DNA of 64,000 nt, from IMG/VR virus record IMGVR_UViG_3300004369_000008, positions 1 to 64,000 of that record, one strand, 5' to 3'. The stretch's first letter is position 1, and each line of letters starts with the position of its first letter. The translations under genes were made by a program, and so were the position numbers. This document shows positions 4,848 through 27,441 of this stretch, in pieces. This DNA comes from a virus. Under the pieces are notes generated by a model. It saw nothing but the letters and a program-made list of their open reading frames with translations. It was not told where the DNA came from and made no database searches.

Positions 4848-5717
4848 ATGAAATTAAGACCCTTCCTCGTTGCTGCCACTGTGTTTTTGACAGGATTCAT
4901 GTGTTTCACCATCTGGTATAAGATTGTAAATGTTGGCGAGCCTCCGGTGTCAAAGATTGACGAGAAGATACATGTGCAAACCGAACCAATTGAGACACAA
5001 CCCAAACCAGTCGTTCCCGAATTGGTTCTAAAGCTGAACCAGAAGAACTCTCAAATCCATTCTTTAAGATGCGAAAACATGGATGTCAAGGTTTGGCAAG
5101 ATGGTATGCGTGTTCATCTTTCAGGCGAAGTGTATTACGAGAAACCCTTAAAGTTTCGGATGTTTATTAGTTCTATTTTTGGAAAAGAACTTGATCTAGG
5201 CGCAAATGAAGAGGTGTTTTGGTATTGGTCTCGGCGAAATAAACGAGAGGGGCTGTTCTATGCCAGATATGAGGATTTCTTCAATACTCGTCTGAAAACT
5301 CCCTTTGGCCCTGTGTTTTTGCGTGCATCCTTTGGGGTTGACGAGCTTCCCACAGAGAATGCAAAATTTGTAGAGGACGAAAAGGGTGTCTTGGTCGTGG
5401 TTCAAAGTAAGAACTCGATGGGAAAATCAGTCAACAAATACACATTCATCAATAAGCAGACCGAACTTATCGAAGGATATCTGATTTCTTATGAGGATGG
5501 TAAGAAATCTGCGTCAGCCGAGATTATGGAACATGAGAATGGACTACCCAAGAAAATTCTGTTCACATACTACGAAGAAGACCAGATCATGCAACTTGAG
5601 TTAAGCAACATTCAAATGAATGCGTCAATTGACGGGAAGATGTGGCAAATACCTTCAATCCAACCTCAGATCAATATGGGCGAACAAGCTGGTGCGGCAG
5701 TTCAATATGATGAATGA
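4848..5717 (+). CDS. Membrane-anchored LolA/LolB-like protein of unknown function
   Basis: 289 residues with an N-terminal hydrophobic segment (residues 7-24) that is either a signal anchor or signal peptide, followed by a Pro/Glu-rich linker and a soluble beta-rich domain. The pattern SLRCENMDVKVW then EKPLKFRMFISSIFGKELDL resembles bacterial LolA/LolB-type or DUF4292-type lipoprotein-handling proteins; this is a low-certainty resemblance. SD (GGAGG) lies upstream. Its stop overlaps the start of the next gene (ATGA), so the two are probably co-translated. An envelope-facing role in the infected cell is inferred. Confidence 0.6.
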   Translation: MKLRPFLVAATVFLTGFMCFTIWYKIVNVGEPPVSKIDEKIHVQTEPIETQPKPVVPELVLKLNQKNSQIHSLRCENMDVKVWQDGMRVHLSGEVYYEKPLKFRMFISSIFGKELDLGANEEVFWYWSRRNKREGLFYARYEDFFNTRLKTPFGPVFLRASFGVDELPTENAKFVEDEKGVLVVVQSKNSMGKSVNKYTFINKQTELIEGYLISYEDGKKSASAEIMEHENGLPKKILFTYYEEDQIMQLELSNIQMNASIDGKMWQIPSIQPQINMGEQAGAAVQYDE

Positions 5718-7864
5718 ATTCCATAGATAAAGGCATGAGATTCAGAGACTTCCTAGAAACACGTCAGGAATTGGCGACTGCTTTCAAAAATAAACTGCAT
5801 GGAGTGCCACAAGACCCACACCATCATCCAGAAGGTGATGTGTTGATTCACACACGCCTTGTGAGAAAAGCTGTTCCAAAAGCCATCCAAGAGTTGAAAG
5901 CCGTACAAGCCGGTGAACTGAGAGATGTATTGGCCAACATAGATTTCTCACTCTCTACTGAAGAAGAGAAGATCATTGCCATGGCTACATGGGTACATGA
6001 CATTGGCAAACAAACAGCAACAACAATTGGCGGAAATCCATGGCGAGGTGGCGGCGATGGAAAAATACAAGCCATCGGCCATCAGGATCAGAAGCACTAC
6101 TTGCCTCAGTTGCGGGATTTGGAAGGACTTGCGCCAGATGAAACCAAGCAGCTTTACCATCAGAATGCCGATCTCATCAACTGGTTGATAGAACATCACA
6201 TGGATTTCGCTTCTGGACAGGGTTTCTCAAAGCGATTTGTGGCCGAAAACTTCGATGGTGGAGTTATCAAGCCCAGTCATCGCATGAAGCTCTTGCTGAT
6301 TCTCATGTGGTCCGATAAAATGGGCCGCAGACCAGAAGAGACTATCGCCCAATCCGTTCAGAAGAATGCAAGAAACCTTCGTCAATCTTCTGAGACAGGA
6401 CAGAAGAGGGCTGCGAACATTTCTCGCCAGTCTGTGTCCTTTGAAGGTGGGCCAGAGCAATTTGCCCAGTTGCTTAAGAACCGTAGTATGGCTGCGAATC
6501 AGAGATTCAAGGCTTTACAAGGCAAGTTCCCACACTTGTCAGATGATGAAATTAGAGGTCTGACCGAGAGTGCTGAAGTGAATCCAACAATTGTAAAATC
6601 CGAAATTCACATTCCAGAGGAATGCAGCATCGTTGCCCGTGCCCTAACTCAAAGCGGGGGAGCGGAGGTCTATGCTGTGGGCGGATCGGTACGAGATCAC
6701 TTGTTTGGGAAAGAACCCAAGGACTTCGATCTTACCTGCAATCTTTCCGAGCAGGAAATTGTTGATCGCCTGCGCAAAGCTGGATTGAAAGTGGCTGAAA
6801 AGGAATCAGATACCTTCGGTGTGGTTTTTGTTCACGTCACAGATGGACAAGAACCCATCGAGGTAGCTCCTTTCCGTACCGATGTTGGCGTAGCTGACGG
6901 TCGAAGACCTGATGAAGTTAAGTTTGGTGTTCCTATTGAACAAGATGCGCTCCGTCGTGACTTCACGATGAATAGTCTTTACTACGACTTCGGCTTTGGT
7001 CGCTTCGGCGATGGATCGATCATTGATTTCAACCCCGGTGGGCAAGGTGTAAAAGACATCAAAGATGGAGTGGTACGTCCCGTAGGCGATCCCAATGACC
7101 GCTTTCGTGAAGACCGCTTTCGCATCTTGCGTTTGATGCGATTTTTCGCACGATACAACGCCGGTGACATCACTCAGTTTCTCGACGAGCAAACCAAACA
7201 GGCCATCCAGAAATATGGTGATCTCAGAAGTCCCATGGAAGGACTGGAACCTATCAGTGATGAGCGTATTGAGAGTGAATTTGTTGCTGGTTTGAAGCAA
7301 TCACAAAACACTTCCGAATTCCTGAAGAACTATGTTCGTCTGGGATTATTGGAGACGGTGTTTCCACGTCTCCATGTGGACATTCAAGGAATTGACCGAT
7401 TGGACAATAGCAAGAATGTCAATGTGATTTTGGCGTGGTTGCTTCGTCAGAATGGCAACGTTGGCGCTGCATTGAACAAATTGAAATACCCCAACGAAAT
7501 CAGTGATCCTGTTCAGTTCTTGGTCGAGTCGTTGAAGTTCGGTGCGGACAATGTGTTTGCAATGGTCAAGAGACGTGATCGCAATGCAGAAATGTCTGCT
7601 GGTCTCAAACGTGACCTACAGGAATTTGCACGAGTGGCCGGTGATCCAGAATTGACATCCCGCCTCACACACTTGTCACAATACGACATGCCAGTTGTCA
7701 GCGGTCAAGAATTGATGGCCAAAGGTCTCAAGGGAAAAGAGATTGGCGACGAACAACGTCGTCAAGCAACCGATCATTACAGCAGTTCATTCACTGACTT
7801 TTTGAAAGGTCAAAATGATCCGCTTAGTCCAAATGATCCAAAACAAAAAACCTCCGGTGTTTGA
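5714..7864 (+). CDS. HD-domain / CCA-adding-type nucleotidyltransferase fusion
   Basis: 716 residues. Residues 35-205 form an HD phosphohydrolase-type domain (H46, HD at 95-96, HH at 161-162, D201). Residues 300-560 form a class II tRNA nucleotidyltransferase / poly(A) polymerase domain: GGSVRD (323-328), catalytic DFD (337-339), RRDFTMNSL (414-422), EDRFRILR (466-473). In bacterial CCA enzymes carrying an HD domain, the HD lies C-terminal; here it is N-terminal. Probable role: 3'-end repair or modification of tRNA, with the HD domain removing phosphates. A second Met at 5735 would give MRFRDFLETRQ, which resembles a T4 capsid-targeting peptide. Translationally coupled to the upstream gene. 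Confidence 0.85.
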   Translation: MNSIDKGMRFRDFLETRQELATAFKNKLHGVPQDPHHHPEGDVLIHTRLVRKAVPKAIQELKAVQAGELRDVLANIDFSLSTEEEKIIAMATWVHDIGKQTATTIGGNPWRGGGDGKIQAIGHQDQKHYLPQLRDLEGLAPDETKQLYHQNADLINWLIEHHMDFASGQGFSKRFVAENFDGGVIKPSHRMKLLLILMWSDKMGRRPEETIAQSVQKNARNLRQSSETGQKRAANISRQSVSFEGGPEQFAQLLKNRSMAANQRFKALQGKFPHLSDDEIRGLTESAEVNPTIVKSEIHIPEECSIVARALTQSGGAEVYAVGGSVRDHLFGKEPKDFDLTCNLSEQEIVDRLRKAGLKVAEKESDTFGVVFVHVTDGQEPIEVAPFRTDVGVADGRRPDEVKFGVPIEQDALRRDFTMNSLYYDFGFGRFGDGSIIDFNPGGQGVKDIKDGVVRPVGDPNDRFREDRFRILRLMRFFARYNAGDITQFLDEQTKQAIQKYGDLRSPMEGLEPISDERIESEFVAGLKQSQNTSEFLKNYVRLGLLETVFPRLHVDIQGIDRLDNSKNVNVILAWLLRQNGNVGAALNKLKYPNEISDPVQFLVESLKFGADNVFAMVKRRDRNAEMSAGLKRDLQEFARVAGDPELTSRLTHLSQYDMPVVSGQELMAKGLKGKEIGDEQRRQATDHYSSSFTDFLKGQNDPLSPNDPKQKTSGV

Positions 7865-8161: not shown

Positions 8162-8213
8162 TCCTGAATTGATTTGATTTATCCGACACTAATTTATGTG
8201 GAAGGAGTATCAA

Positions 8214-9779
8214 ATGACAACAGAATTGATAGAAGAATTGCCCAAAGAGGAAATGACCGTCGAAAGGGCGCAAAAAATCATCGATGATGGCTTGGATGCC
8301 GCTTCGGAACGAATTTCTTCCATGCCAATGATTGCAGAAATCATCTGCAAACAAATCTTAAAGTGTGACCCTGAGTGCATTAAAGCATATCAGCTTCTCG
8401 GCCTCGCTAAGCACGGAATGGGACGACACGCAGAAGCCGTAGAAATTTTCCAAGTGGTATTGGAATTTGAACCAGACAATGCCGACGCCCACAACAACAT
8501 TGCGCTTGCTTACGGTTGTCTCGACATCTTTGATAGAGGTATTGAGCATTTGGAGATAAGTAACAAATTGAGACCAAATTGCTATTTGTTCATGAATAAT
8601 CTGGCTCTTCAATACAGGCAAGTTGGAAGATACAACGACGCTATTGATCTTCTTAAAGCAGCTTGCAAAGTACATTGCGAACCAGAAATGCTTTGCAATC
8701 TGGGTGGAATTTTTGCAGAATTGTTGGATTATGAAGGCTCAATGAAGTTTTACAAAACTGCCATTGAACTTGATCCAGATAACTCCACAGCACATGTCGA
8801 TATGGCCTGCACAAATTTCCTCCTTGGAAACATGAAAGAAGGCTTTGATCTTTACGAATGGAGATTCAAGCATTACAACCAATTGAACTTTTACAAAAAA
8901 GCATACGATCAATCCAAACTTTGGAATGGAGAAGATAGTCTTGAAGGCAAGCGAGTTCTGGTTTATGCAGAACAGGGAATGGGCGACTGCATTCAATTCT
9001 GTCGATGGCTTCCAGAGCTTAAAGAAAGAGGGGCGTATGTGATGCTCCATTGCTCTGAAATTCTTTCCACCGTCATGAAGAGAATACCCGGAGTGGATGA
9101 AATTGTCATTCGTGACATTGTGAATAACAAAGGTGAAGAATTTCCTGAATACGATTACCAATGTTGCACAATGAGCCTTCCGCATCTCCTCAAGTCTTAC
9201 GAGTTTAATGGCAAGCCTTACATTGAACCTCTGACGGACAAATTCAAGAAGTTCATTAAAGGCGAGAATTCCAGCACATGCAATGTTGGCATTTCATGGG
9301 CTGGAAATCCTGCTCACCCAAATGACAGACTACGATCTATACCCCTGAAAGAATTCTGGCCTCTGCATAATACCGAAGGTGTCAAGCTAATGAACCTTCA
9401 GGTTGATATGAGAAAGAGAAGTTACAGAACAGCTAATGGAATTATTGATCTAACAGAACAGTGTGAAAACATGAATCTGGTGGACATGACAAGCATGATC
9501 CAAACACTTGAGGACACATGCACAATTTTATCTGGTCTCGATTTAGTTGTCACATGTGACACTGCCTTGGCTCACTTAGCTGGAGCAATGGGCGTTCCAT
9601 GCTGGATAGCATTGCCATACAATCCTGACTGGAGATGGCTCAAAGAGGGCAGCGAGTCGAAGTGGTATGATAGTATCAAACTATTCCGACAGCCCAGTCG
9701 TGGGGATTGGACAAGTGTATTTGAAGAAATGCAGGGAGAGCTAGAAGAATATGCTAAGGTTGTATTACAGAATAAGTGA
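8214..9779 (+). CDS. TPR protein with GT9-like glycosyltransferase domain
   Basis: 521 residues from the ATG with AAGGAG upstream; the frame opens 18 bases earlier, but that Met lacks an SD. Residues 20-210 contain about five tetratricopeptide repeats (for example HAEAVEIFQVVLEFEPDNADAHNN). The C-terminal half has the heptosyltransferase/ADP-heptose (GT9) pattern: QGMGDCIQFCRWLP, VGISWAGNP and a late VTCDTALAHLAGAMGVP nucleotide-sugar site. Probable transfer of a sugar to phage or host surface material. It overlaps the next glycosyltransferase gene by 29 bases. Confidence 0.8.
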   Translation: MTTELIEELPKEEMTVERAQKIIDDGLDAASERISSMPMIAEIICKQILKCDPECIKAYQLLGLAKHGMGRHAEAVEIFQVVLEFEPDNADAHNNIALAYGCLDIFDRGIEHLEISNKLRPNCYLFMNNLALQYRQVGRYNDAIDLLKAACKVHCEPEMLCNLGGIFAELLDYEGSMKFYKTAIELDPDNSTAHVDMACTNFLLGNMKEGFDLYEWRFKHYNQLNFYKKAYDQSKLWNGEDSLEGKRVLVYAEQGMGDCIQFCRWLPELKERGAYVMLHCSEILSTVMKRIPGVDEIVIRDIVNNKGEEFPEYDYQCCTMSLPHLLKSYEFNGKPYIEPLTDKFKKFIKGENSSTCNVGISWAGNPAHPNDRLRSIPLKEFWPLHNTEGVKLMNLQVDMRKRSYRTANGIIDLTEQCENMNLVDMTSMIQTLEDTCTILSGLDLVVTCDTALAHLAGAMGVPCWIALPYNPDWRWLKEGSESKWYDSIKLFRQPSRGDWTSVFEEMQGELEEYAKVVLQNK

Positions 9780-15174: not shown

Positions 15175-16317
15175 ATGTCCAGTCTAATCGTAGAAGTATG
15201 CGCAGTAGAAGAAGTTGCGCCTCATTCAAATGCTGATCGCCTAGAGCGAGTCCGAGTTAAAGGCTGGTGGTGCATTGCGCCAATTGGCCAACTCCATGTT
15301 GGGGACAAGTGCGTCTATATCCCACCTGATGCTGTTCTCTCCGAAGAACTGGCAGACAGGTGGGGCATCTCCAAATACTGTGGTGAACTCGCCAAGCTGC
15401 CCAATGGCGAACGACCACCGGGCAAACGTGTCCGTGCTTGTCGTTTTCGGGGCGAAAGTTCGTTTGGTACATTGCAACCTCTCGACGACCCAACATGGGA
15501 AGTTGGCAGGGATGTCCGAGAACATTTCGGCATCACCAAGTACGAACCACCTATCAAATCCAACGAAGGCGACTCTGCGCCAGAAATTCCTGAATTTCAT
15601 CGATACACAGGCATTGAGAATCTCGCCAACTTTCCTACCATTTTTTCAGAAGGAGAGGAAGTTGTTGTCACAGAAAAGATTCACGGAACGAACTGCCGCA
15701 TTGGTCTGGCCTTTATTCCAGATCGAGACGGACATCGTGCATGGGCTTTTGTAGCTGGCTCTCATAGCATTCGTCGTTACGAATACAGTCAATCAGAATC
15801 AGGGAAACGACATAGAAGTCGTTACTGGTTTCCATTGCCCGAAGGCGAGGACAAATATGATTCACCACTCGCCAATCTCATCGAAGACGTTTTGTTTAAC
15901 GAAAAAGCAGAAAGCTCTGTCATTGTCTTCGGCGAAATCTTCGGTGCTGGTGTTCAAGATATGCAGTATGGACAGAAAGGTATGTCCTTCCGTATCTTCG
16001 ATATTAGTGTCGATGGAAAATACATTGACCCAGATTCACTTCTGAAATACTGTGAGCGGTTTGAGGTCGAAACTGTGCCTGCACTTTACCGTGGTCCTTT
16101 CTCATTGGCTAAGATGGACGAACTGGTTGATGGACCTACTACAATCTGCGATCCGAGTGAGATCAAAGAACCGTTCAAAGGAAGAGAAGGAATCGTAATA
16201 CGTCCAGTCAATGAAAGGTACAACTTTGACTTGGGCGGTGATGGCCGGGTAATCCTCAAATACATCAGTGCGGACTACCATGAGCGCCGTAACAAAAATT
16301 GTACCGAAGACCATTAA
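15175..16317 (+). CDS. ATP-dependent RNA ligase, DraRnl (Rnl5)-like
   Basis: 380 residues. Residues 1-110 form the OB-like N-terminal domain typical of the Deinococcus DRB0094 ligase family (HSNADRLERVRVKGW, GDKCVYIPPDAVL). The nucleotidyltransferase domain begins with motif I KIHG at K168 (TEKIHGTNCR), followed by FGEIFG (motif IIIa-like), EGIVIR (motif IV) and ILKY (motif V). All catalytic motifs appear intact. It seals RNA nicks by lysine adenylation and likely repairs tRNA or other RNA cut by host nucleases. Confidence 0.9.
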   Translation: MSSLIVEVCAVEEVAPHSNADRLERVRVKGWWCIAPIGQLHVGDKCVYIPPDAVLSEELADRWGISKYCGELAKLPNGERPPGKRVRACRFRGESSFGTLQPLDDPTWEVGRDVREHFGITKYEPPIKSNEGDSAPEIPEFHRYTGIENLANFPTIFSEGEEVVVTEKIHGTNCRIGLAFIPDRDGHRAWAFVAGSHSIRRYEYSQSESGKRHRSRYWFPLPEGEDKYDSPLANLIEDVLFNEKAESSVIVFGEIFGAGVQDMQYGQKGMSFRIFDISVDGKYIDPDSLLKYCERFEVETVPALYRGPFSLAKMDELVDGPTTICDPSEIKEPFKGREGIVIRPVNERYNFDLGGDGRVILKYISADYHERRNKNCTEDH

Positions 16318-18854: not shown

Positions 18855-19742
18855 ATGCGAATTGACCTGTTCATCGTTGACGGTCTCAATGATTTTTGTG
18901 CCACCGGCAATGAGTCGTGGAATCTTGAGAAGCGTCGTGGTGCATTATTCGTCGATAACGCCGACACAGAGGCTCAACTCTGTGCCGACATGATCGAACG
19001 ACTTACACCCTCGGACCAACCATCAAAGCTCGCCAAAATTCACAAATTCTGCGACGAGCATCACAAGAACGACATCGCTCATCCGGGTTTCTGGAAAAAA
19101 CCGGACGGCTCTCATCCCGGCCCATTCACTGGCCCTGTTACGCTCGCCGATGTGGAGAGCCATCGTCTGACTCCTGTTCTCGACGGTTGGCGACCACGAG
19201 TTCTGGCCTATATCAAGGCTCTGGATAAGCGAAGCCGCAATCCTCTCATCATCTGGCCGGAACACTGCCTGTTCAAGTCGTGGGGCGCTTGCGTCTACAA
19301 GCCCATCGCAGATGCTCTCAATCTGTGGTGTGAACGAACTGGCGGATGGGTCAACTTCATCGACAAAGGCCGTTTCCCGCTGACCGAACACTACGGCGGA
19401 TTCGAGGCGGATGTGCCGGATGACGACCATCAGGACACCAAGTTCAATACAAAACTTGTGCCAGACTTGGAAGCCGCTGACAAGGTGGCGTGGATTGGTT
19501 GGGCTGGTTCGCACTGTCTTAAATGGACGGCAAGCGACGGGATCAACTACTTCACCGATCCCAACGATGGCTCAAATGCGCTCGTGAAGAAGTCCATCTT
19601 TTTCGAAGACGGTTCTGCCCCGGTCGTATCTCCTGATCCTCAGCAAACGGCCATGTTCGCCCAGTGGCGTCGGGACTTCCTCGACGAAATGGACAAACGT
19701 GGTGCTACGATCACGAAGACGACAGAGTTTCTCAAAGCATAA
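18855..19742 (+). CDS. Nicotinamidase-like cysteine hydrolase
   Basis: 295 residues. The isochorismatase/nicotinamidase layout is visible: D9 in FIVDGLNDF, HPGFW (76-80), WPEHC (134-138), DKGRF with candidate catalytic K171 followed by HYGGF, and candidate nucleophile C221 in WAGSHCLKWTA. This matches the Asp-Lys-Cys triad of PncA, which converts nicotinamide to nicotinate. It is longer than usual PncA (about 210 residues), with an insertion at about 20-100. pncB and nadE downstream make the nicotinamidase assignment the best one, although other cysteine hydrolases share the fold. Confidence 0.75.
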   Translation: MRIDLFIVDGLNDFCATGNESWNLEKRRGALFVDNADTEAQLCADMIERLTPSDQPSKLAKIHKFCDEHHKNDIAHPGFWKKPDGSHPGPFTGPVTLADVESHRLTPVLDGWRPRVLAYIKALDKRSRNPLIIWPEHCLFKSWGACVYKPIADALNLWCERTGGWVNFIDKGRFPLTEHYGGFEADVPDDDHQDTKFNTKLVPDLEAADKVAWIGWAGSHCLKWTASDGINYFTDPNDGSNALVKKSIFFEDGSAPVVSPDPQQTAMFAQWRRDFLDEMDKRGATITKTTEFLKA

Positions 19743-19758
19743 GAGAAAGGACCGACTC

Positions 19759-20022
19759 GTGAATCAAATTCACACTGCTCTCTGCAAGGCACACGCCGTT
19801 CTCAAGTGGTTTGCTTTTGGAGAGGCTGTCCGGTTGGCAGATCAAGTCTACAACATTTGTATTGCCTACCCGGATAAGAAAGATGACGAGTCGGCCCAAA
19901 AACAATTGTTGGAGATTGCTCAGAAAACCCAAAACTTCTTGCAATCTCACAACGGTCCCCCAACTCATGACGAGTCCTACAAGGAACTCTCGGCAGCGCT
20001 TCTCAAACACCAGATAGGATGA
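19759..20022 (+). CDS. Small helical protein, unknown
   Basis: 87 residues from a GTG with GAAAGGA upstream; the frame is open further back but overlaps the nicotinamidase-like gene. Helical, repeat-like sequence (HAVLKWFAFGEAVRLADQVYN, then QKTQNFLQ). Its stop overlaps the next gene's start (ATGA-type), so it is part of the NAD+ unit. Confidence 0.6.
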   Translation: MNQIHTALCKAHAVLKWFAFGEAVRLADQVYNICIAYPDKKDDESAQKQLLEIAQKTQNFLQSHNGPPTHDESYKELSAALLKHQIG

Positions 20023-20813
20023 AACCAATGTCAACCACTTTGAAACCTGATTTCCAATCATTCATGTTGCCCACAGGGGGCAACTTCACCGGACTGAAGA
20101 TCGGCCATGAAGACATGACCTCTGAGAATACGGTTGCGACCGGATTGCTCGATGAGTCCGGTTCGACCAATTCCTTCGCACGAGACATGGAGTTGGCAGT
20201 CGGGGAGATCATCAAATCTCTTCGTGATTCGTCACGAGCAGAACACATCATGTATCGTCATTGTCACTTCGGCACTGGCTTTCGTGAACACCACGGTTAT
20301 ACACCGTTGTCGAAGCTGAATCCCGGCGATTACGACGGTTGTTACCAGCCGGGTGGTGCAACCCATTTGTACGACAGTTGTGTGAATGTCATCGAAGCCA
20401 CGCAGGTCTACGGTGAAGAGATAACGAATAAGAAGTACCTGTGCAATGGGTTCATCTACATCATCACGGACGGCGCAGACTACGGCTCGACGTTGACCAT
20501 CCCTGATGTTCGTGATGCTCTTGCCAAAGCCATTGCCAGTGAAGATTTGGAATCGCTGATGACCGTTCTCATCGGCGTCAACGTCGGATCGTACAAGGCC
20601 GGACTGGAGAAGTTCAAAAACGATGCCGGTCTCACCCAGTTTATCACTCTGGAAAATACCAGTGCCAAGGCACTGGCGAAATTGTCCGGGTTCATCGTCT
20701 CGTCCATGATGGCTCAATCGCAACACCTCGGATTGGGTGGACCTTCACAACCCCTCGACCCGAACACAGGAAAGCCGGTTGCTGCCGGAAGCACAGGGTC
20801 GCTGACGTTTTAA
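20019..20813 (+). CDS. von Willebrand factor A-like (VWA) protein
   Basis: 264 residues. MIDAS-type metal site: LLDESGST (DxSxS, about residues 43-50), the Thr in GGATHLYDS, and ITDGADYG. This resembles TerY-type cytoplasmic VWA proteins. It lies between the nicotinamidase-like and pncB genes and overlaps its upstream neighbour. In bacteria, TerY-type VWA proteins are often encoded with PP2C phosphatases; a PP2C-like fragment is found at 25884. Role here unknown. Confidence 0.7.
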   Translation: MKPMSTTLKPDFQSFMLPTGGNFTGLKIGHEDMTSENTVATGLLDESGSTNSFARDMELAVGEIIKSLRDSSRAEHIMYRHCHFGTGFREHHGYTPLSKLNPGDYDGCYQPGGATHLYDSCVNVIEATQVYGEEITNKKYLCNGFIYIITDGADYGSTLTIPDVRDALAKAIASEDLESLMTVLIGVNVGSYKAGLEKFKNDAGLTQFITLENTSAKALAKLSGFIVSSMMAQSQHLGLGGPSQPLDPNTGKPVAAGSTGSLTF

Positions 20814-20872
20814 CCGTTAATCATCAAAGAAATCATCAAAGAGGGAGAAAAGGCTCATTGGTGGGAAGAGAA

Positions 20873-21418
20873 ATGATTTTCATTAACGAACTCGATGTCA
20901 TGCAAGATGGTTTCCGGTTGGCAAAACCGCAACTGTGCGACATGGTTAATTTTGTTGCACAAGGCGGGAGATTCAATCACGAATCGTTGTTGCAGCACAA
21001 CCCTCAGAGAACATCTCTGGTGGCTGTGGTCGAGTTCGAAGATGGCCGCAGATTCATCCGAGATGGGTTTCACAGAGCGGCAGTGATCCTTTTTGCCCGA
21101 GACGTGCCGTGCATATTTGATGATGAATACGTCATTGAGAATATGACGTATGACATGTATCTCGAACCGAACATTGAAAATCAATGGTACACGCCATTTG
21201 ATCCACGCATCGAAGTCAGACGGTCTGACTTCTTTAATTTCAAAGATGAAGTTTTATCTCGCATCGATCAAGATGGTGTGATTGATTTCATCAAACAAAA
21301 CAAGGATCGTTACGCTATACCTCGAAATAGCAGTCACAAACTCGTGACTCATGCCGAGAAACTATGGCCAATTTGGAATCAAGATCATGCCGATCATCAA
21401 GTCAATGCTAGACAATGA
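20873..21418 (+). CDS. ParB/sulfiredoxin-like domain protein
   Basis: 181 residues from the ATG with GGGAAGAG upstream; a TTG start 15 bases earlier is also possible. The segment VVEFEDGRRFIRDGFHRAAVILFARDVPCIF matches the ParB-like nuclease core (DG.HR.A). Such small ParB-like proteins in phages can be nucleotidases, ATPases or nucleases. The 51722-52222 gene has the same core. It overlaps the pncB start by 32 bases. Confidence 0.65.
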   Translation: MIFINELDVMQDGFRLAKPQLCDMVNFVAQGGRFNHESLLQHNPQRTSLVAVVEFEDGRRFIRDGFHRAAVILFARDVPCIFDDEYVIENMTYDMYLEPNIENQWYTPFDPRIEVRRSDFFNFKDEVLSRIDQDGVIDFIKQNKDRYAIPRNSSHKLVTHAEKLWPIWNQDHADHQVNARQ

Positions 21419-22559
21419 TTTGTATAAATACTCGATGCAAGCGGCGGTGTTGGAATACCGCCAGCATGTACCTGTCAAATATGTCTTCAAGAACCGCCGA
21501 CCAGAAGGCAAGTTCAATAAGGCATTCATGACTGGACTCAACCAAGAGTTGGAATCCATGTCAGAGGTCGCTGCAAAAGATGAAGAACTGCAATGGTTCC
21601 AAGATACTTGTCCATTCATGACGGATCAGTACATGGAGTATCTTAGGAACTACCGATACAACCCAGCAGACATCAGTGCAAAACTCGTGGACGGCGATCT
21701 TCAATTAGAAATCAACGGCTCTTGGGATCGCACCATTCTCTGGGAAGTCCCTCTCATGAGCGTGATCTCAGAGTTGTATTTCACTCATTGCGACACCAAC
21801 TGGGCACATGACGAAATTGCTCAAGCCAATGCTTTGATTGAAAAGGGGAATCGACTCAAAGATTGTAGTCTGGCTGACTTTGGAACTCGCCGTCGTCGCA
21901 GCCATAACATGCAAGATTTGGTGGTGAGAACCCTCAAGCAATTCCCTAAATTTGCGGGAACGAGCAATGTACATTTGGCGCACAAATATGGCGTCAAACC
22001 AATCGGCACGATGGCCCACGAATGGATCATGGGAATCAGTGCCCTTGAAGGTTTGAGATTCGCCAACCGACAAGCTCTGAACATCTGGAGCAAAGTCTTC
22101 CGTGGTCGTCTGGGAGTGGCCCTGACGGATACATTTGGAACAGGTGCGTTCTTTGAAGATTTCGACGACTACCTCGCCCGTCTGTTTGATGGTGTGCGAC
22201 ATGATAGCGGTGATGCCTTGGTGTTTGCACGCAAAGTAATTAGTCATTACAAAAAACTTGGGATCGATCCGAAAACAAAAACCATTGTCTTCAGTGATGG
22301 ACTTGATGTGGACACGGCCCTACAAATCCAGAAGGAGTTGGATGGTCTGGTTCGGATCAGCTTCGGCATCGGAACGCACTTAACCAATGACTATGCAGGA
22401 TCGAAGGCTCTAAACATGGTCATCAAACTGTGGTCTTGTAATGGCGTTACTGTGGTCAAGCTGAGCGACGTTGCTGCTAGTAAACAAATCGGTGACAAAG
22501 ACGCTTTGCGTGTCGCCAACTGGACTTTCTTCAACACTCCATTGGATTCAGTTGTATAA
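21387..22559 (+). CDS. pncB: Nicotinate phosphoribosyltransferase
   Basis: 390 residues. The whole length reads like bacterial PncB: SMLDNDLYKYSMQ at the N-terminus, FGTRRR (165-170), GTSN (191-194), AHEW with the phosphorylatable H211, RHDSGD (271-276) and VFSDGLD. It converts nicotinate + PRPP to nicotinate mononucleotide in the Preiss-Handler route. FGTRRR and AHEW distinguish it from nicotinamide phosphoribosyltransferase (NadV/NAMPT), the enzyme more often noted in phages. I chose the ATG at 21387 because it aligns with PncB starts and has GGAA upstream; a Met at 21351 lacks an SD. Confidence 0.93.
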   Translation: MPIIKSMLDNDLYKYSMQAAVLEYRQHVPVKYVFKNRRPEGKFNKAFMTGLNQELESMSEVAAKDEELQWFQDTCPFMTDQYMEYLRNYRYNPADISAKLVDGDLQLEINGSWDRTILWEVPLMSVISELYFTHCDTNWAHDEIAQANALIEKGNRLKDCSLADFGTRRRRSHNMQDLVVRTLKQFPKFAGTSNVHLAHKYGVKPIGTMAHEWIMGISALEGLRFANRQALNIWSKVFRGRLGVALTDTFGTGAFFEDFDDYLARLFDGVRHDSGDALVFARKVISHYKKLGIDPKTKTIVFSDGLDVDTALQIQKELDGLVRISFGIGTHLTNDYAGSKALNMVIKLWSCNGVTVVKLSDVAASKQIGDKDALRVANWTFFNTPLDSVV

Positions 22560-22565
22560 AGTTGG

Positions 22566-22593
22566 TTTACAAGCCAAAAACGTGTCGTAGAAT
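22566..22593 (+). promoter_or_regulatory. Conserved promoter, second NAD+ unit
   Basis: TTTACA, 16 bases (AGCCAAAAA...TCG), TAGAAT. The predicted transcript start is only a few bases ahead of the SD of the 22611 gene. Confidence 0.75.
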
Positions 22594-22610
22594 AGAAGTA
22601 GGAGGAAGCA

Positions 22611-22793
22611 GTGGAAGATCGAATCCAAACATTGGAACGGATTTCAGGGCTTCAGGTCTCACACCGAATGGAGAAGGAACAACATGTCTTTACATTCGGC
22701 GTTGGTCCTCGTAACAAACCTGCGGAAAGGAACTTGAATGCCAACCCCAATCGTAAAAGCTGGACTTGGCATTCTTGTCATCAAAGACTCTAA
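22611..22793 (+). CDS. Small protein upstream of the Nudix gene
   Basis: 60 residues from GTG with a strong SD (AGGAGG). It overlaps the Nudix gene by 56 bases. The first 40 residues (ERISGLQVSHRMEKEQHVFT) look like real coding sequence; the Trp/His-rich end overlaps the Nudix start. It could be a leader for coupling. No family recognised. Confidence 0.45.
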   Translation: MEDRIQTLERISGLQVSHRMEKEQHVFTFGVGPRNKPAERNLNANPNRKSWTWHSCHQRL

Positions 22794-23214
22794 GGTTCTC
22801 ACTGGCATTCGCAAAGGAAGCCATGGAGAAGGCAGGAGAGCGTTTCCGGGTGGTCATATCGATTCAGAAGACGAATCTCTCGTCCATGCCAGTTGTCGTG
22901 AATTGTCAGAAGAGTGTGGTATTCAAGTTCAACACCGATTGATCCGGGGTGGTTGGGACTTGTTTACAACATTCGACATTCTCAGCGAAGACGGACAGAA
23001 ACGGTATGTGACCATTTACATGGTTGCCGACTATATTTCTGGTGGCGAGTGGATCGACGATCACACTCTGAAAGGACTAGAACCGGATAAGTGCGAGAAG
23101 TGGGAGTTTCATTCACTTGAAACTTTGGCCAAGTTAATCAAAGCCGAAGGAGATCAAGTGTGGATTCCCATTGATCGAATCCAACTTCAACAGGAGACCT
23201 TGAATGAACGGTAG
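22738..23214 (+). CDS. Nudix hydrolase
   Basis: 158 residues. Nudix box around residues 38-62: GGHIDSEDESLV then RELSEECGI. It has one residue more than the classical GX5EX7REUXEEXGU spacing, but keeps RE..EE.G. Overall it resembles MutT/NUDT15-type nucleotide pyrophosphatases. Within the NAD+ unit it could hydrolyse NAD-related dinucleotides, ADP-ribose or damaged NTPs; the substrate cannot be read from sequence. It lacks an NMN adenylyltransferase domain, so it does not supply the missing NadD step. Confidence 0.85.
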   Translation: MPTPIVKAGLGILVIKDSKVLTGIRKGSHGEGRRAFPGGHIDSEDESLVHASCRELSEECGIQVQHRLIRGGWDLFTTFDILSEDGQKRYVTIYMVADYISGGEWIDDHTLKGLEPDKCEKWEFHSLETLAKLIKAEGDQVWIPIDRIQLQQETLNER

Positions 23215-23758
23215 CATTCCTCCTTTTCTGATGCCTTTCATGCAGCAGGATGACGGACGACGCAGCCCTGCGGACGACGCTTTTGTTCCCCCTCGCATCA
23301 ACAAGGCCATTGAGTTCCTTGAACTCATGGCTCTGAAGCGTCGGAGACAAGCGGCTGCATCCGATCATCAAATGGAGGTTATCGAACCTGACAATCTCTG
23401 TGCTGAGGAAGAAGCAGCACGAGATTCAGCACTCCAATGTCTTGCCAAATACTTTGATGGCAAGCTGGAAAACAACGTCTGGGAAGAGCTTCGCCTACAA
23501 TCCATCAAGCAGAAGGTGGAACACGAAGGGCAATGCGGACATGGCGTCAGCGGTGGCGTAGGTCGTATGATGAGTTGTCCGGCTTGCCACCAAAGTCCTC
23601 AACCCGATCCAAATTGCTCTCTGTGTGAAGGCTGTGGCCACTTGATGGTTCAGCCTGCTACGCCAGAGAATGTTCCACACCCCATTATGACGATCATGGA
23701 ACAAATCTTCAAAGCTCGTCCTCAACGGGGAGACGAAAAAGATGGAGACGCAGAATGA
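23204..23758 (+). CDS. Zinc-ribbon protein, unknown
   Basis: 184 residues. The C-terminal third has CGHG, CPAC and CSLCEGCG, a DnaJ-type or rubredoxin-like zinc module; the front is helical and charged. It overlaps both neighbours (Nudix by 11 bases, nadE by 4), indicating tight co-translation in the NAD+ unit. No family recognised. Confidence 0.6.
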   Translation: MNGSIPPFLMPFMQQDDGRRSPADDAFVPPRINKAIEFLELMALKRRRQAAASDHQMEVIEPDNLCAEEEAARDSALQCLAKYFDGKLENNVWEELRLQSIKQKVEHEGQCGHGVSGGVGRMMSCPACHQSPQPDPNCSLCEGCGHLMVQPATPENVPHPIMTIMEQIFKARPQRGDEKDGDAE

Positions 23759-25887
23759 ACGAGTTCGGTTTTGTCCGCATTACCGCTGTATCGCCGGTAC
23801 TCAAGGTCGGCGATCCCGATTTTAACACCACCAAAACGTTACAAGTTTTGGAACAGGTGCAAGACTCAGACATCGTAGTGTTTCCAGAACTCGGCATCAC
23901 TGGCTACACCTGCGGTGATCTGTTCCGTCAAGACACCCTCTACTACTCGATCTTCGAGCAGTTGGTCCGGCTCTGCGACTACAGCAAGAACCGACCACAC
24001 CAGTTGATCTTCGTAGGTGCGCCTTTCCGACTCGACAACAGCCTCTACAACTGTGCCTTCGCCATCAACAATGGTCGTGTAGTTGGGATCGTCCCCAAAC
24101 AGAACATCCCCAACTACAACGAGTTCTACGAAGGACGGTGGTTCCGCCGAGCAACTGGACAAGAACGCCAGAATGTTGCGTTGCTCTCTGGGCCACTCGC
24201 TGCGAGGAACATTGGGTTTGTCAACAGATGCCCGGTCTTATTCTTCGAGGCGTCCTTCAAATGGGTCCAAATATGCAATTCCCATGTGCCTTTCGGAACC
24301 AATCTGATCTTCTGGCACAAAGATGTGGGGATCATGGCTGAAATCTGCGAGGACTTGTGGATGCCCATTCCACCAAGTTCCTACGCCGCCCTCGCTGGGG
24401 CGCACATTATGGTCAACTTGTCGGCCAGTAATGAAACAGTCGCCAAGTGCGAATACCGACGTGCCCTCGTTGCCCAACAGTCTGGCCGCTGCATGTCGGC
24501 CTACATCTATGCTTCGTCTGGGCCGAAAGAATCAACCAGTGATGTTGTCTTTGGTGGGCATTGCCTCATCGCTGAGAACAGTCACATGTTGATTGAATCG
24601 GAACGAGTCGGCGATGGCAAGTTGCATACGGGCGGCTCTGTCTTCATCACAGCGGACGTGGACGTTCAGAAGTTGCAAGCCGAACGTCGCTGCACAACCA
24701 GCTTTGGCGATGCCTCCAACAACACCAACCAATTCCAGCCTGTTCGGATTGAGTTGCTCGAAGAAGAAACTCCGAAACCGTTGATCCAGAAACGGAATGG
24801 GCGTCCGTTCGTTCCTCAAAACGAAACCACGCTTCACAATCGGTGTGCCGAAATCTTCGGGATTCAGGTCGCTGGACTTTCCAAGAGAATTGAACGTCTC
24901 GGCGGACAACCTGCGTTGCAAATCGGAATCTCTGGTGGCTTGGACTCCACTCTGGCTGCATTGGTGGCTGCCAAGGCGTGTAAGATAACCGGCTTCAAGT
25001 CAAGCATCATCAAGGCAATCACAATGCCGGGGTTTGGGACAACGCCCAAGACCAAGACAAACGCCTTGGCTCTCATGGAACATCTGGGATTCGAGTCGGA
25101 CACCATCGACATTCGACCGGCGTGTCTCCAGACATTTCGGGACATCAAACACAGCCCTTTCGGAATTGACTTGGGACAAGCTGGAGAAGCCGGATCGCTA
25201 GGAGTTGAAGGCTTAACAGGCACGCTTGCTGGACTTAATCCAGAAGTCCTCGCCCAAGGCGATCTCAAGTTCGAGAACATTCAGGCTCGCCAACGGACCT
25301 ATCTGCTCATGAGCCGGGGGTTCGTGTTGGGGACGGGTGATCTCTCTGAGTTGGCCTTGGGGTGGTGTACCTACAATGGCGATCACATGAGCATGTACAA
25401 CGTAAACTGCTCGATCCCCAAGACGCTCGTGAAGTTTCTCGTCAATTACGTTGCGATGCACGAGTATGACGATGGGCCGGTGCGACAAACGTTGTTGGAC
25501 ATCGTTGGCACAAAGATTTCCCCAGAACTTTTGCCGCACAATCAGGGCGAAATCGTACAATCCACTGAGGATGTCCTTGGACCATACGAGTTGCACGACT
25601 TCTACCTCTTCTACCTCATGAGAAACGGATTCTCGCCGAAGAAAATATGGTATCTCACCAACAATACCATATTCACTCAGAACTACAGCCCAGAACTCAA
25701 GCTGAAGACGCTGCGAACGTTCATTGCACGCTTCTTCTCTCAGCAATTCAAACGGAATTGTGTTCCTGATGGTCCAAAAGTTGGTTCTGTCAGTTTGTCA
25801 CCTCGTGGTGATTGGCGTATGCCATCCGACGCCGACGCAACTCTGTGGCTCAAGGAAGTAGACGATATTGAATGGAGCTTGCGATGA
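23755..25887 (+). CDS. nadE: Glutamine-dependent NAD+ synthetase
   Basis: 710 residues, normal for the two-domain enzyme. The N-terminal nitrilase/glutaminase domain has the triad E45 (FPELGITGY), K115 (VPKQN) and C198 (AEICED). The C-terminal synthetase domain has the PP-loop SGGLDS at 393-398. All key residues are present. It amidates nicotinate adenine dinucleotide to NAD+, using glutamine. With pncB and the nicotinamidase-like gene it supplies three of the four Preiss-Handler steps; NadD (adenylylation) is not in the window. Start is ATGA-coupled to the zinc-ribbon gene. Confidence 0.95.
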   Translation: MNEFGFVRITAVSPVLKVGDPDFNTTKTLQVLEQVQDSDIVVFPELGITGYTCGDLFRQDTLYYSIFEQLVRLCDYSKNRPHQLIFVGAPFRLDNSLYNCAFAINNGRVVGIVPKQNIPNYNEFYEGRWFRRATGQERQNVALLSGPLAARNIGFVNRCPVLFFEASFKWVQICNSHVPFGTNLIFWHKDVGIMAEICEDLWMPIPPSSYAALAGAHIMVNLSASNETVAKCEYRRALVAQQSGRCMSAYIYASSGPKESTSDVVFGGHCLIAENSHMLIESERVGDGKLHTGGSVFITADVDVQKLQAERRCTTSFGDASNNTNQFQPVRIELLEEETPKPLIQKRNGRPFVPQNETTLHNRCAEIFGIQVAGLSKRIERLGGQPALQIGISGGLDSTLAALVAAKACKITGFKSSIIKAITMPGFGTTPKTKTNALALMEHLGFESDTIDIRPACLQTFRDIKHSPFGIDLGQAGEAGSLGVEGLTGTLAGLNPEVLAQGDLKFENIQARQRTYLLMSRGFVLGTGDLSELALGWCTYNGDHMSMYNVNCSIPKTLVKFLVNYVAMHEYDDGPVRQTLLDIVGTKISPELLPHNQGEIVQSTEDVLGPYELHDFYLFYLMRNGFSPKKIWYLTNNTIFTQNYSPELKLKTLRTFIARFFSQQFKRNCVPDGPKVGSVSLSPRGDWRMPSDADATLWLKEVDDIEWSLR

Positions 25888-26021
25888 ATACAGGATCATA
25901 CTTCAAGATTGGTAGCACACACGTCGTTTGTGAAGATTATGCAATTCACACAGATGACGCCGTGGTTGTTTCTGATGGCTGTTCAAATGGTGGTGGACCA
26001 TTGATGACCCTGAAATCGTAG
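25884..26021 (+). pseudogene. Truncated PP2C-type phosphatase fragment
   Basis: A 45-residue frame overlapping the nadE stop (ATGA). HVVCEDYA followed by VVVSDGCSNG matches the N-terminal metal-binding strand pair of PP2C-like phosphatases (..CQD..., V.DG.). The frame stops at 26021 and I found no continuation of the family downstream in any frame, so it is probably a 3'-deleted remnant. Confidence 0.55.
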
Positions 26022-26032
26022 CCGACATGAGG

Positions 26033-26178
26033 TTGTGTCATGCGTCGAATCAGGTACAATTCGCCCGAGCAGACAAATTGTTTGTTCTGAAGGTAAAATG
26101 ACCACTTACTGAATGGACTTAGGATGAAAACTCCAGATGGTTGGGGAAGGGCTGGGCCGAAAGGCTCAGCCCTTTTTT
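26033..26178 (+). ncRNA. Candidate short transcript (promoter to terminator)
   Basis: TTGTGT (26033-26038), 16 bases, TACAAT (26055-26060) resembles a promoter. About 90 bases further on, GGGCTGGGCC-GAAA-GGCTCAGCCC plus T6 (26149-26178) is a clear terminator. The predicted RNA of about 110 nt holds only a short frame starting at 26124 that runs into the terminator. The terminator also ends the nadE transcript and overlaps the 3' end of the minus-strand sulfotransferase gene. Confidence 0.35.
26149..26178 (+). terminator. Rho-independent terminator of the NAD+ region
   Basis: 10-bp stem with one G-U pair and a GAAA tetraloop, followed by six Ts. Confidence 0.85.
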
Positions 26179-26972
26179 GTTGCGCTCTTGCGATATTCAA
26201 CCTCTTCAGGCGTGCAAATTCTATCGTGAATCTCACACGCCTCATCGTAGTTTTCAATCCATTCATGTAGAGGTTGCTCTCTAAGTTTTCTGGATTTTGG
26301 TCGGAGTGAACCCATTCGGAATACCCCTAAGAAATCCAAAATTCGATTGGTTTGATTGTCCCAATCATCAAGGAAATCTTCGTAGAAAACCTCAAGAGTA
26401 TCTAATCCTTGAGTCTCTCTTTTGATTTTTTCAACATAATTCTGATCCCATGTGTACCATCCTCGAAAATGATCTTCAGTAACATGAATTTTAATGACAT
26501 CCGCAGGACCATCATTTCGTTCGGTTCCATCTGGAAGTTCAGTGAATCTTTGCCAAAGATCAGTCTTGATAGCCACGGATTGAGACGTGTATTGTTCCAT
26601 CCTGTTTCTGCGGAAGGGAATAATGATCTTGTAACCTTGTTCTCGGATGTAATCTCGAACATCAGTGAGTTCTCCAAGAGGATCGGGATGCTCATGTGTG
26701 CGTGCTTGATAGCCTTGGAGCTTAAACCCGACAGCTAAATGCTCAGGCTTGACATTCTCCGATAAAATCTTTTCAAGATAGCTCTTAGCTGTTGCGTGTT
26801 CTGAGTAGCATGTCTTGAACTGATGATATCCGATTTGATCTGGATACTTGTGATATCTTTGGTGAAAAAGTTCAGCTAGACATAGAACTTGGGGATGATG
26901 TCCCAGAACTCCCCACAGCATGGTCGAGCCTGTTCTTGGCTGATGACAGATAGCAAATTTAATGATCGACAT
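26166..26972 (-). CDS. Sulfotransferase (PAPS-dependent, Stf0-like)
   Basis: 268 residues. The N-terminal CHQPRTGSTML is the 5'-phosphosulfate-binding loop. IIPFRRNRMEQYTS is the 3'-phosphate-binding segment (Arg...Ser). A conserved C-terminal FYEDFLDDW helix follows. It transfers sulfate from PAPS to a hydroxyl on a sugar or lipid. The start overlaps the upstream Nudix gene by 14 bases. Together with the many glycosyltransferases it suggests surface-glycan decoration. Confidence 0.8.
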   Translation of the reverse strand: MSIIKFAICHQPRTGSTMLWGVLGHHPQVLCLAELFHQRYHKYPDQIGYHQFKTCYSEHATAKSYLEKILSENVKPEHLAVGFKLQGYQARTHEHPDPLGELTDVRDYIREQGYKIIIPFRRNRMEQYTSQSVAIKTDLWQRFTELPDGTERNDGPADVIKIHVTEDHFRGWYTWDQNYVEKIKRETQGLDTLEVFYEDFLDDWDNQTNRILDFLGVFRMGSLRPKSRKLREQPLHEWIENYDEACEIHDRICTPEEVEYRKSATKKG

Positions 26973-27441
26973 TTCTTATCCTAACCCACTCGGTGAACGA
27001 GGATGACATTTTGCGACGTATTGAATTCAGATAACGTGGCAACGTGTCTTTGAGTTTAGGATGAAGTTTTGTTTGTTTCATCTCGGAGAATGATACCCAT
27101 TTCCAATCAGTGTGTTCATCACTCAAGTTTTTCACGTCGAACTGGTCCTGAACTCGATAGAGAAATGTCGTGAAGGTCTTGCGACCGTCCTTGCTAACCA
27201 GTGTTTCAAATCTTCGACCGGGAATACTTTCGAGACCAGTTTCCTCTTTGGTCTCCCTGATGGCTGTTCCAATTTTTGTTTCACCATCTTTGGCACCACC
27301 GCCCGGCAAACACCAAGTTTCTCCATTGTCAGAATCGCCTGATCTTTTCAACAGAAGAACCGATTCGCCATCGGTGAATAGTATTCCAGCAGCCTGCTTG
27401 TTATTTACTTTAGTGCCGCCCTTGCCAAATCTGTGAAACAT
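26959..27441 (-). CDS. Nudix hydrolase (second)
   Basis: 160 residues with a canonical Nudix box at 47-70 (GGGAKDGETKIGTAI then RETKEETGL), matching GX5EX7REUXEEXGU exactly. MutT-like; substrate unknown. Its start shares a base with the upstream stop (TAATG), so it is translationally coupled. It is not in the NAD+ unit but only 1 kb from it on the other strand. Confidence 0.9.
   Translation of the reverse strand: MFHRFGKGGTKVNNKQAAGILFTDGESVLLLKRSGDSDNGETWCLPGGGAKDGETKIGTAIRETKEETGLESIPGRRFETLVSKDGRKTFTTFLYRVQDQFDVKNLSDEHTDWKWVSFSEMKQTKLHPKLKDTLPRYLNSIRRKMSSSFTEWVRIRNVDH

Follow-up and report, generated by a model that had tools for sequence, protein, structure and literature searches.

The virus record analysed here (IMG/VR record IMGVR_UViG_3300004369_000008) is 73,986 bp long, and the window comprises its first 64,000 bases. 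Between positions 18,855 and 25,887 it holds a block of genes that, judging by the sequence, is probably a phage copy of the Preiss-Handler module for salvage of nicotinamide adenine dinucleotide (NAD+), here partly degraded. The direct basis for this assignment is that the genes are intact, that their products fall into identifiable families and keep conserved active sites, that syntenic relatives carry NadD, and that the window bears a deletion scar. A sequence-only reading had proposed a three-enzyme module made up of a nicotinamidase-like (PncA-like) protein, PncB and NadE, and the three open reading frames (ORFs) were found intact where it had placed them. The contig also encodes T4-type tail sheath, tail-sheath stabiliser, baseplate and tube proteins together with ribonucleotide reductase and an SbcC-like subunit, and because of this gene content we assign it to a T4-like myovirus. 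The record is probably a partial genome of a large phage.

The PncA-like protein of the window, searched as a single sequence, showed no match in Pfam and a weak match to the PRK11609 nicotinamidase model (21 bits, E = 1.8e-4), which missed the curated cut-off of 174 bits. A profile of 67 family members ranked solved nicotinamidases first in the PDB, with yeast Pnc1 (2h0r) as the best match (E = 2e-19). The catalytic Asp-Lys-Cys triad named in the sequence-only reading (D9, K171 and C221) was invariant across the 67 homologues. The putative metal ligands D67, H69 and H137 (the DxH ... WPxHC set), which aligned with Pnc1 2h0r, and C138 were also invariant, while H76 was kept in more than 90%. 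A structural comparison had also been suggested; the AlphaFold2 (AF2) model of the protein (predicted local distance difference test score 95) was closest to nicotinamidases, which made up all ten of its best fold matches. Both profile and fold placed nicotinamidases above isochorismatases, and a bacterial family member from Andreprevotia (L217) exceeded the Pfam isochorismatase cut-off. With 67 family members and a structural model in hand, the case that the protein is a nicotinamidase is strong.

A scan of viral contigs gave no relatives when the PncA-like sequence was used alone, but the alignment-based scan did find them, and the family was present in at least 133 viral stretches and in 379 cellular stretches. 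On a quick tree the viral and cellular members were intermixed, with 24 label changes, at least 3 of which were forced by well supported branches; we therefore conclude that the gene was transferred repeatedly. The window copy was sister to the copy of the relative G017 (support 98).

The PncB ORF scored above NCBIfam cut-offs (452 bits for PRK05321; 407 bits for TIGR01514, cut-off 269.55), matched the solved homologue 1yir in the PDB (E = 9e-89), and best matched NAPRT models rather than NAMPT-type ones. The FGTRRR motif given for it beforehand was kept (F177-R182), but H211, offered as the accompanying histidine, was not conserved in homologues; the invariant histidine is H223, within GTMAHEW. 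The protein probably starts at codon 13 (about 21,387), where homologues begin. The NadE ORF reached 786 bits with PRK02628 (cut-off 473), matched both Pfam domains and aligned with Mycobacterium tuberculosis NadE (3dla, E = 1e-118). It is the two-domain form, with a CN-hydrolase domain and a synthetase domain. The sequence-only reading was borne out on its active sites, as the glutaminase triad E45/K115/C198 was present and conserved in 10 phage homologues and the SGGLDS loop was likewise present and conserved.

A search of all 73,986 bp of the contig turned up no gene of the NadD, NadM or NadR type and no adenylyltransferase domain; as its phosphoribosyltransferase is also of the PncB type, the contig lacks the NARP2-type pair of NAMPT and nicotinamide mononucleotide (NMN) adenylyltransferase. 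The sequence-only reading had called the NadD step missing from the window and to be supplied from the host or from outside. The absence held for the entire record, but relatives have nadD at this very locus and the window is scarred there. The gene order in G017 and G002 is nadE, PP2C phosphatase, nadD, protein kinase. Behind nadE the window retains the beginning of the PP2C gene, which matched that of G017 (L084:16064-16921; tblastn 61.6 bits, E = 2e-16, 73% identity), and the end of the kinase gene, which matched residues 537-570 of L084:17559-19271 (tblastn 42.4 bits, E = 2e-9, 53% identity). The two remnants meet at about 25,995. A single deletion of about 3 kb relative to G017 would explain the loss of the PP2C body, nadD and the kinase body. 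Since the start of PP2C is fused to the end of the kinase, and both genes flank nadD in relatives, the window would formerly have had nadD. An assembly join at 25,995 is a possible alternative to a true deletion, and reads would be needed to decide.

The nadD gene of G003 and G004 contains two in-frame TAG codons, both at Trp positions of relatives. The G003 frame (L068, 45205-45699) resembles a broken gene, and the G004 copy is alike. Recoding of TAG in these two genomes was rejected, as nadD alone is interrupted, and neither the RNA ligase nor the stops of neighbouring genes require it. NadD seems to be repeatedly dispensable in these phages, which would be expected if host NadD suffices for the phage.

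The order RNA ligase, PncA-like gene, vWA, pncB, nadE recurred across diverged phages. NadD-like ORFs lay behind nadE in G001, G005, G017, G018, G019 and G020; for each of them the top-scoring models were those of nicotinate-nucleotide adenylyltransferase, and two exceeded the TIGR00482 cut-off. Matches to CTP_transf in L072 and L073 (194 and 386 aa) were rejected as NadD because the sequences resemble the CoaD type. The syntenic relatives are thus predicted to encode PncB, NadD and NadE, and some a full Preiss-Handler route. Genes for the PncA-like protein, PncB, NadE and NadD stood within 10 kb of one another in G017 (L084), G002 (L120) and the pair L087/L088, so that nicotinamide could be taken all the way to NAD+. 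The layout in G013 was different: one ORF near pncB (L079:11812-13050) joins a NadR-like adenylyltransferase to an ammonia-type NadE, and its product would carry out two steps at the end of NAD+ synthesis.

Bacterial members of the PncA-like family were found with pncB and nadE in Andreprevotia (L207 and L217) and in L182, L178, L225 and L234. NrtR-type repressors (PF21906) adjoined the PncA-like gene in L217 and L225. PP2C was among its neighbours in L225 and also in L214, which had a kinase as well. The PncA-like/PncB/NadE locus of Andreprevotia lacus (L217:6529-9828) held, beside the NrtR-type repressor, a NadR-like gene and an ADP-ribosylglycohydrolase; a NadM-Nudix protein was also present there.

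Genes lying no more than 10 kb from the PncA-like gene were counted in 80 viral loci (L084-L163). A vWA gene was present in 75, a kinase in 73 and PP2C in 68 of the 80, and all three accompanied the PncA-like gene in 66; the same unit recurs in many bacteria. As these counts were the highest, the constant unit appears to be the nicotinamidase with a TerY-P-like triad. The enzymatic identities behind the proposed three-enzyme module stand, but the unit is larger, and the most constant partners of the PncA-like gene are vWA, PP2C and the kinase. Relatives contain the whole triad; the window has an intact vWA gene only, with PP2C and the kinase as remnants. The vWA protein keeps residues of the metal ion-dependent adhesion site (MIDAS) type (D45-x-S-x-S, T115 and D151). 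Four of nine vWA family members matched Pfam VWA, the window copy not among them. The gene would be the survivor of a TerY-P-like triad that, in relatives, may regulate the module.

Co-occurrence was measured across records of at least 100 kb. Of the 44 records that had the PncA-like gene, 29 encoded NAD synthase, against 2 of the 26 that were anchored on RNA ligase and lacked the PncA-like gene. Fisher's exact test gave p = 1.2e-6, p = 9e-6 without five records added from other searches, and p = 7e-5 when record length was limited to 250 kb; these p-values are optimistic, as the records are mutually related. The controls were picked via a gene of the same lineage. The RNA ligase family served as control anchor because ribonucleotide reductase yielded one record only. 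The NAPRT/NAMPT family was weakly linked to the PncA-like gene (25/44 versus 8/26, p = 0.05), which fits, because NAMPT routes require neither PncA nor NadE.

The enzyme activities, the substrate of the PncA-like protein, the use of host NadD and the purpose of the module are, we infer, as follows. The PncA-like enzyme would deamidate nicotinamide to nicotinate, and PncB would combine nicotinate with phosphoribosyl pyrophosphate (PRPP) to give nicotinate mononucleotide (NaMN). NadD, now supplied by the host or by a phage gene beyond the 74-kb contig, would adenylate NaMN to nicotinate adenine dinucleotide (NaAD), which the glutamine-dependent phage NadE would amidate to NAD+. The purpose would most likely be upkeep of NAD+ in infection, including after NAD+ cleavage by TIR or SIR2 frees nicotinamide, and the module may in this way act against defence.

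The same enzymes could have a metabolic purpose, providing a large phage with more NAD(P) for nucleotide synthesis and redox rather than countering defence, and we give this explanation only slightly less than an even chance. It accords with the ribonucleotide reductase encoded in the genome and with the NAD-regulon genes that adjoin bacterial copies of the operon, and no known anti-NADase gene was identified nearby. The phage also encodes an RNA ligase and a tRNA nucleotidyltransferase, however, which would be expected under defences that target RNA or metabolites, and phage NAD+ synthesis of the NARP kind defeats NADase defences (PMC12774641, PMC13232231). Both observations favour anti-defence use while remaining compatible with a metabolic one.

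Several observations weigh against the Preiss-Handler assignment itself. Near the PncA-like gene, pncB was found in 16, nadE in 11 and nadD in 11 of the 80 viral loci, well below the triad genes, and the close relatives G001 and G005 had no recognisable PncA-like gene near pncB and nadE. These proportions would suit a PncA-like protein that hydrolyses some other amide as partner of the TerY-P-like triad, its proximity to pncB and nadE being secondary; the substrate class of the isochorismatase-like superfamily cannot be read from the fold alone. We regard this as distinctly improbable, given that the nearest solved relatives are nicotinamidases, that NrtR, PncB and NadE are among the bacterial neighbours, and that NadE is linked genome-wide while NAPRT/NAMPT, which also serves a PncA-independent route, is linked weakly. 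The route is also incomplete in the contig for want of NadD, which resembles decay, and the window PncA-like protein sits on a long branch (1.81). With the deletion of PP2C, nadD and kinase and the nadD of G003 and G004 broken by its two TAGs, this could mean that the module in this phage is decaying and now does little. That is unlikely in our view: the PncA-like gene, vWA, pncB and nadE keep their full length and every catalytic residue, and loss of NadD is tolerable because NadD is near-universal in bacteria.

The sequence-only reading had set the chemistry of the module apart from NARP1 and NARP2, and family scores, conserved residues, structure comparison, bacterial neighbourhoods and co-occurrence all agree with it. 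NARP2 and KVP40-type systems (NAMPT/NadV with NadM or NadR) likewise make NAD+ in phages from nicotinamide and PRPP, use a phosphoribosyltransferase of the same superfamily and have NAD+-depletion defence as proposed target. However, NARP2 goes straight to NMN and can do without PncA and NadE, whereas the route of the window would run through deamidation and NaMN formation by PncB, with NadE last. NARP1 (Adps and Namat) also starts from what NADase defences release (nicotinamide) to restore NAD+, but it builds NAD+ from ADP-ribose in two steps (PMC12774641), and the module of the window has no direct reuse of ADP-ribose. Bacterial NrtR Preiss-Handler operons (pncA, pncB, nadD, nadE) have the same enzymes, and those of L225, L214 and L217 share the PncA-like family, with PncB/NadE and an NrtR-type gene at its side; unlike them, the phage copies in the loci read were seen with no NrtR gene, and the window has no nadD. 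The TerY-P triad of vWA, PP2C and Ser/Thr kinase is found as three genes together in relatives, but is joined here to a nicotinamidase and mostly deleted in the window. TerY-P-like modules are stand-alone antiphage systems in the account of Gao 2020 given by PMC11090510. PADLOC returned nothing specific, with no model beyond trivial kinase similarity.

A 2022 survey of phage NAD+ synthesis names NadV, NadM and NadR, and PncB, NadE and nicotinamidase are absent from its text (PMC9503650). Xanthomonas phage X1 (2026) has annotated pncB, nadM, nadD, nadE and NAMPT, with NAD+-depletion defence suggested (PMC13384950). It differs in that the genes come from an automatic list of auxiliary metabolic genes, with no nicotinamidase named and no operon or test, and the likeness is drawn from its published description. 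Single pncB genes were already known in phages, as in Atu_ph07. Our literature search, which took in few subscription journals, met with no description of a phage Preiss-Handler system; within that scope an operon with a nicotinamidase, the triad that goes with it and its distribution among large phages are apparently undescribed.

If the assignment is true, it would add a third chemical route by which phages rebuild NAD+, via deamidation of nicotinamide, and its demands on the host would thereby differ (PRPP, ATP and glutamine, plus NadD in this phage). NAD+ salvage would be tied to a TerY-P-like phosphorylation switch, so far known from stress and defence contexts. Many genes of huge phages that lack an explanation would gain one open to testing, and there would be a divergent nicotinamidase family to assay. 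The window itself offers a natural partial-deletion form for comparison with complete relatives. More tentatively, and with doubt prevailing, large phages may widely hold a distinct and regulated system of NAD+ reconstitution, in which a nicotinamidase bound to a vWA-phosphatase-kinase switch feeds PncB, NadD and NadE and which senses or answers immune NAD+ depletion, as a third strategy beside NARP1 and NARP2.

The features of the block and its 3' flank are listed in Table 1.

Table 1. Genes and gene remnants of the NAD+ salvage block in the window.
Feature	Position	Strand	Remark
Divergent nicotinamidase (PncA-like), 295 aa	18855..19742	+	nicotinamide to nicotinate (predicted)
vWA-domain protein, partner of PncA-like gene	20019..20813	+	MIDAS-type motif intact
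186-aa protein, no assigned function	20858..21418	+	only in this contig among compared loci
PncB, nicotinate phosphoribosyltransferase	21351..22559	+	nicotinate to NaMN (predicted)
Nudix hydrolase	22738..23214	+	Pfam NUDIX above cut-off
184-aa protein with Cys-rich stretch	23204..23758	+	no family match
NadE, glutamine-dependent NAD+ synthetase, 710 aa	23755..25887	+	NaAD to NAD+ (predicted)
PP2C phosphatase remnant, first ~40 codons	25884..25994	+	overlaps nadE stop, as in G017
Protein kinase remnant, last 34 codons	25997..26098	+	frame differs from PP2C remnant
Second Nudix hydrolase	26959..27441	-	syntenic marker after nadE/nadD in closest relatives

The 186-aa protein belonged to no Pfam or PHROG family and had no homologue in related loci. 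The best NCBIfam matches of the Nudix hydrolase between pncB and nadE were the Nudix parts of NadM-Nudix proteins, far under cut-off, and it was rejected as NadM because the adenylyltransferase domain is absent. It is possibly an ADP-ribose or NAD pyrophosphatase, and one may speculate that it could cleave ADP-ribose and so supply ribose phosphate towards PRPP. Copies of the second Nudix hydrolase, 45-52% identical, lay 3' of nadE in L001, L002, L005 and L040. An Stf0-like sulfotransferase gene (26166-26972, minus strand) occupies the site that is taken up by nadD and a small gene in the closest relatives.

Upstream of the block, the window encodes a 716-aa protein with a tRNA nucleotidyltransferase-like domain (5714-7864) and an RNA ligase of phrog_968 (15175-16317), which are likely an RNA repair set. 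A TPR protein, whose C-terminus weakly matches glycosyltransferase-9, is encoded at 8196-9779.

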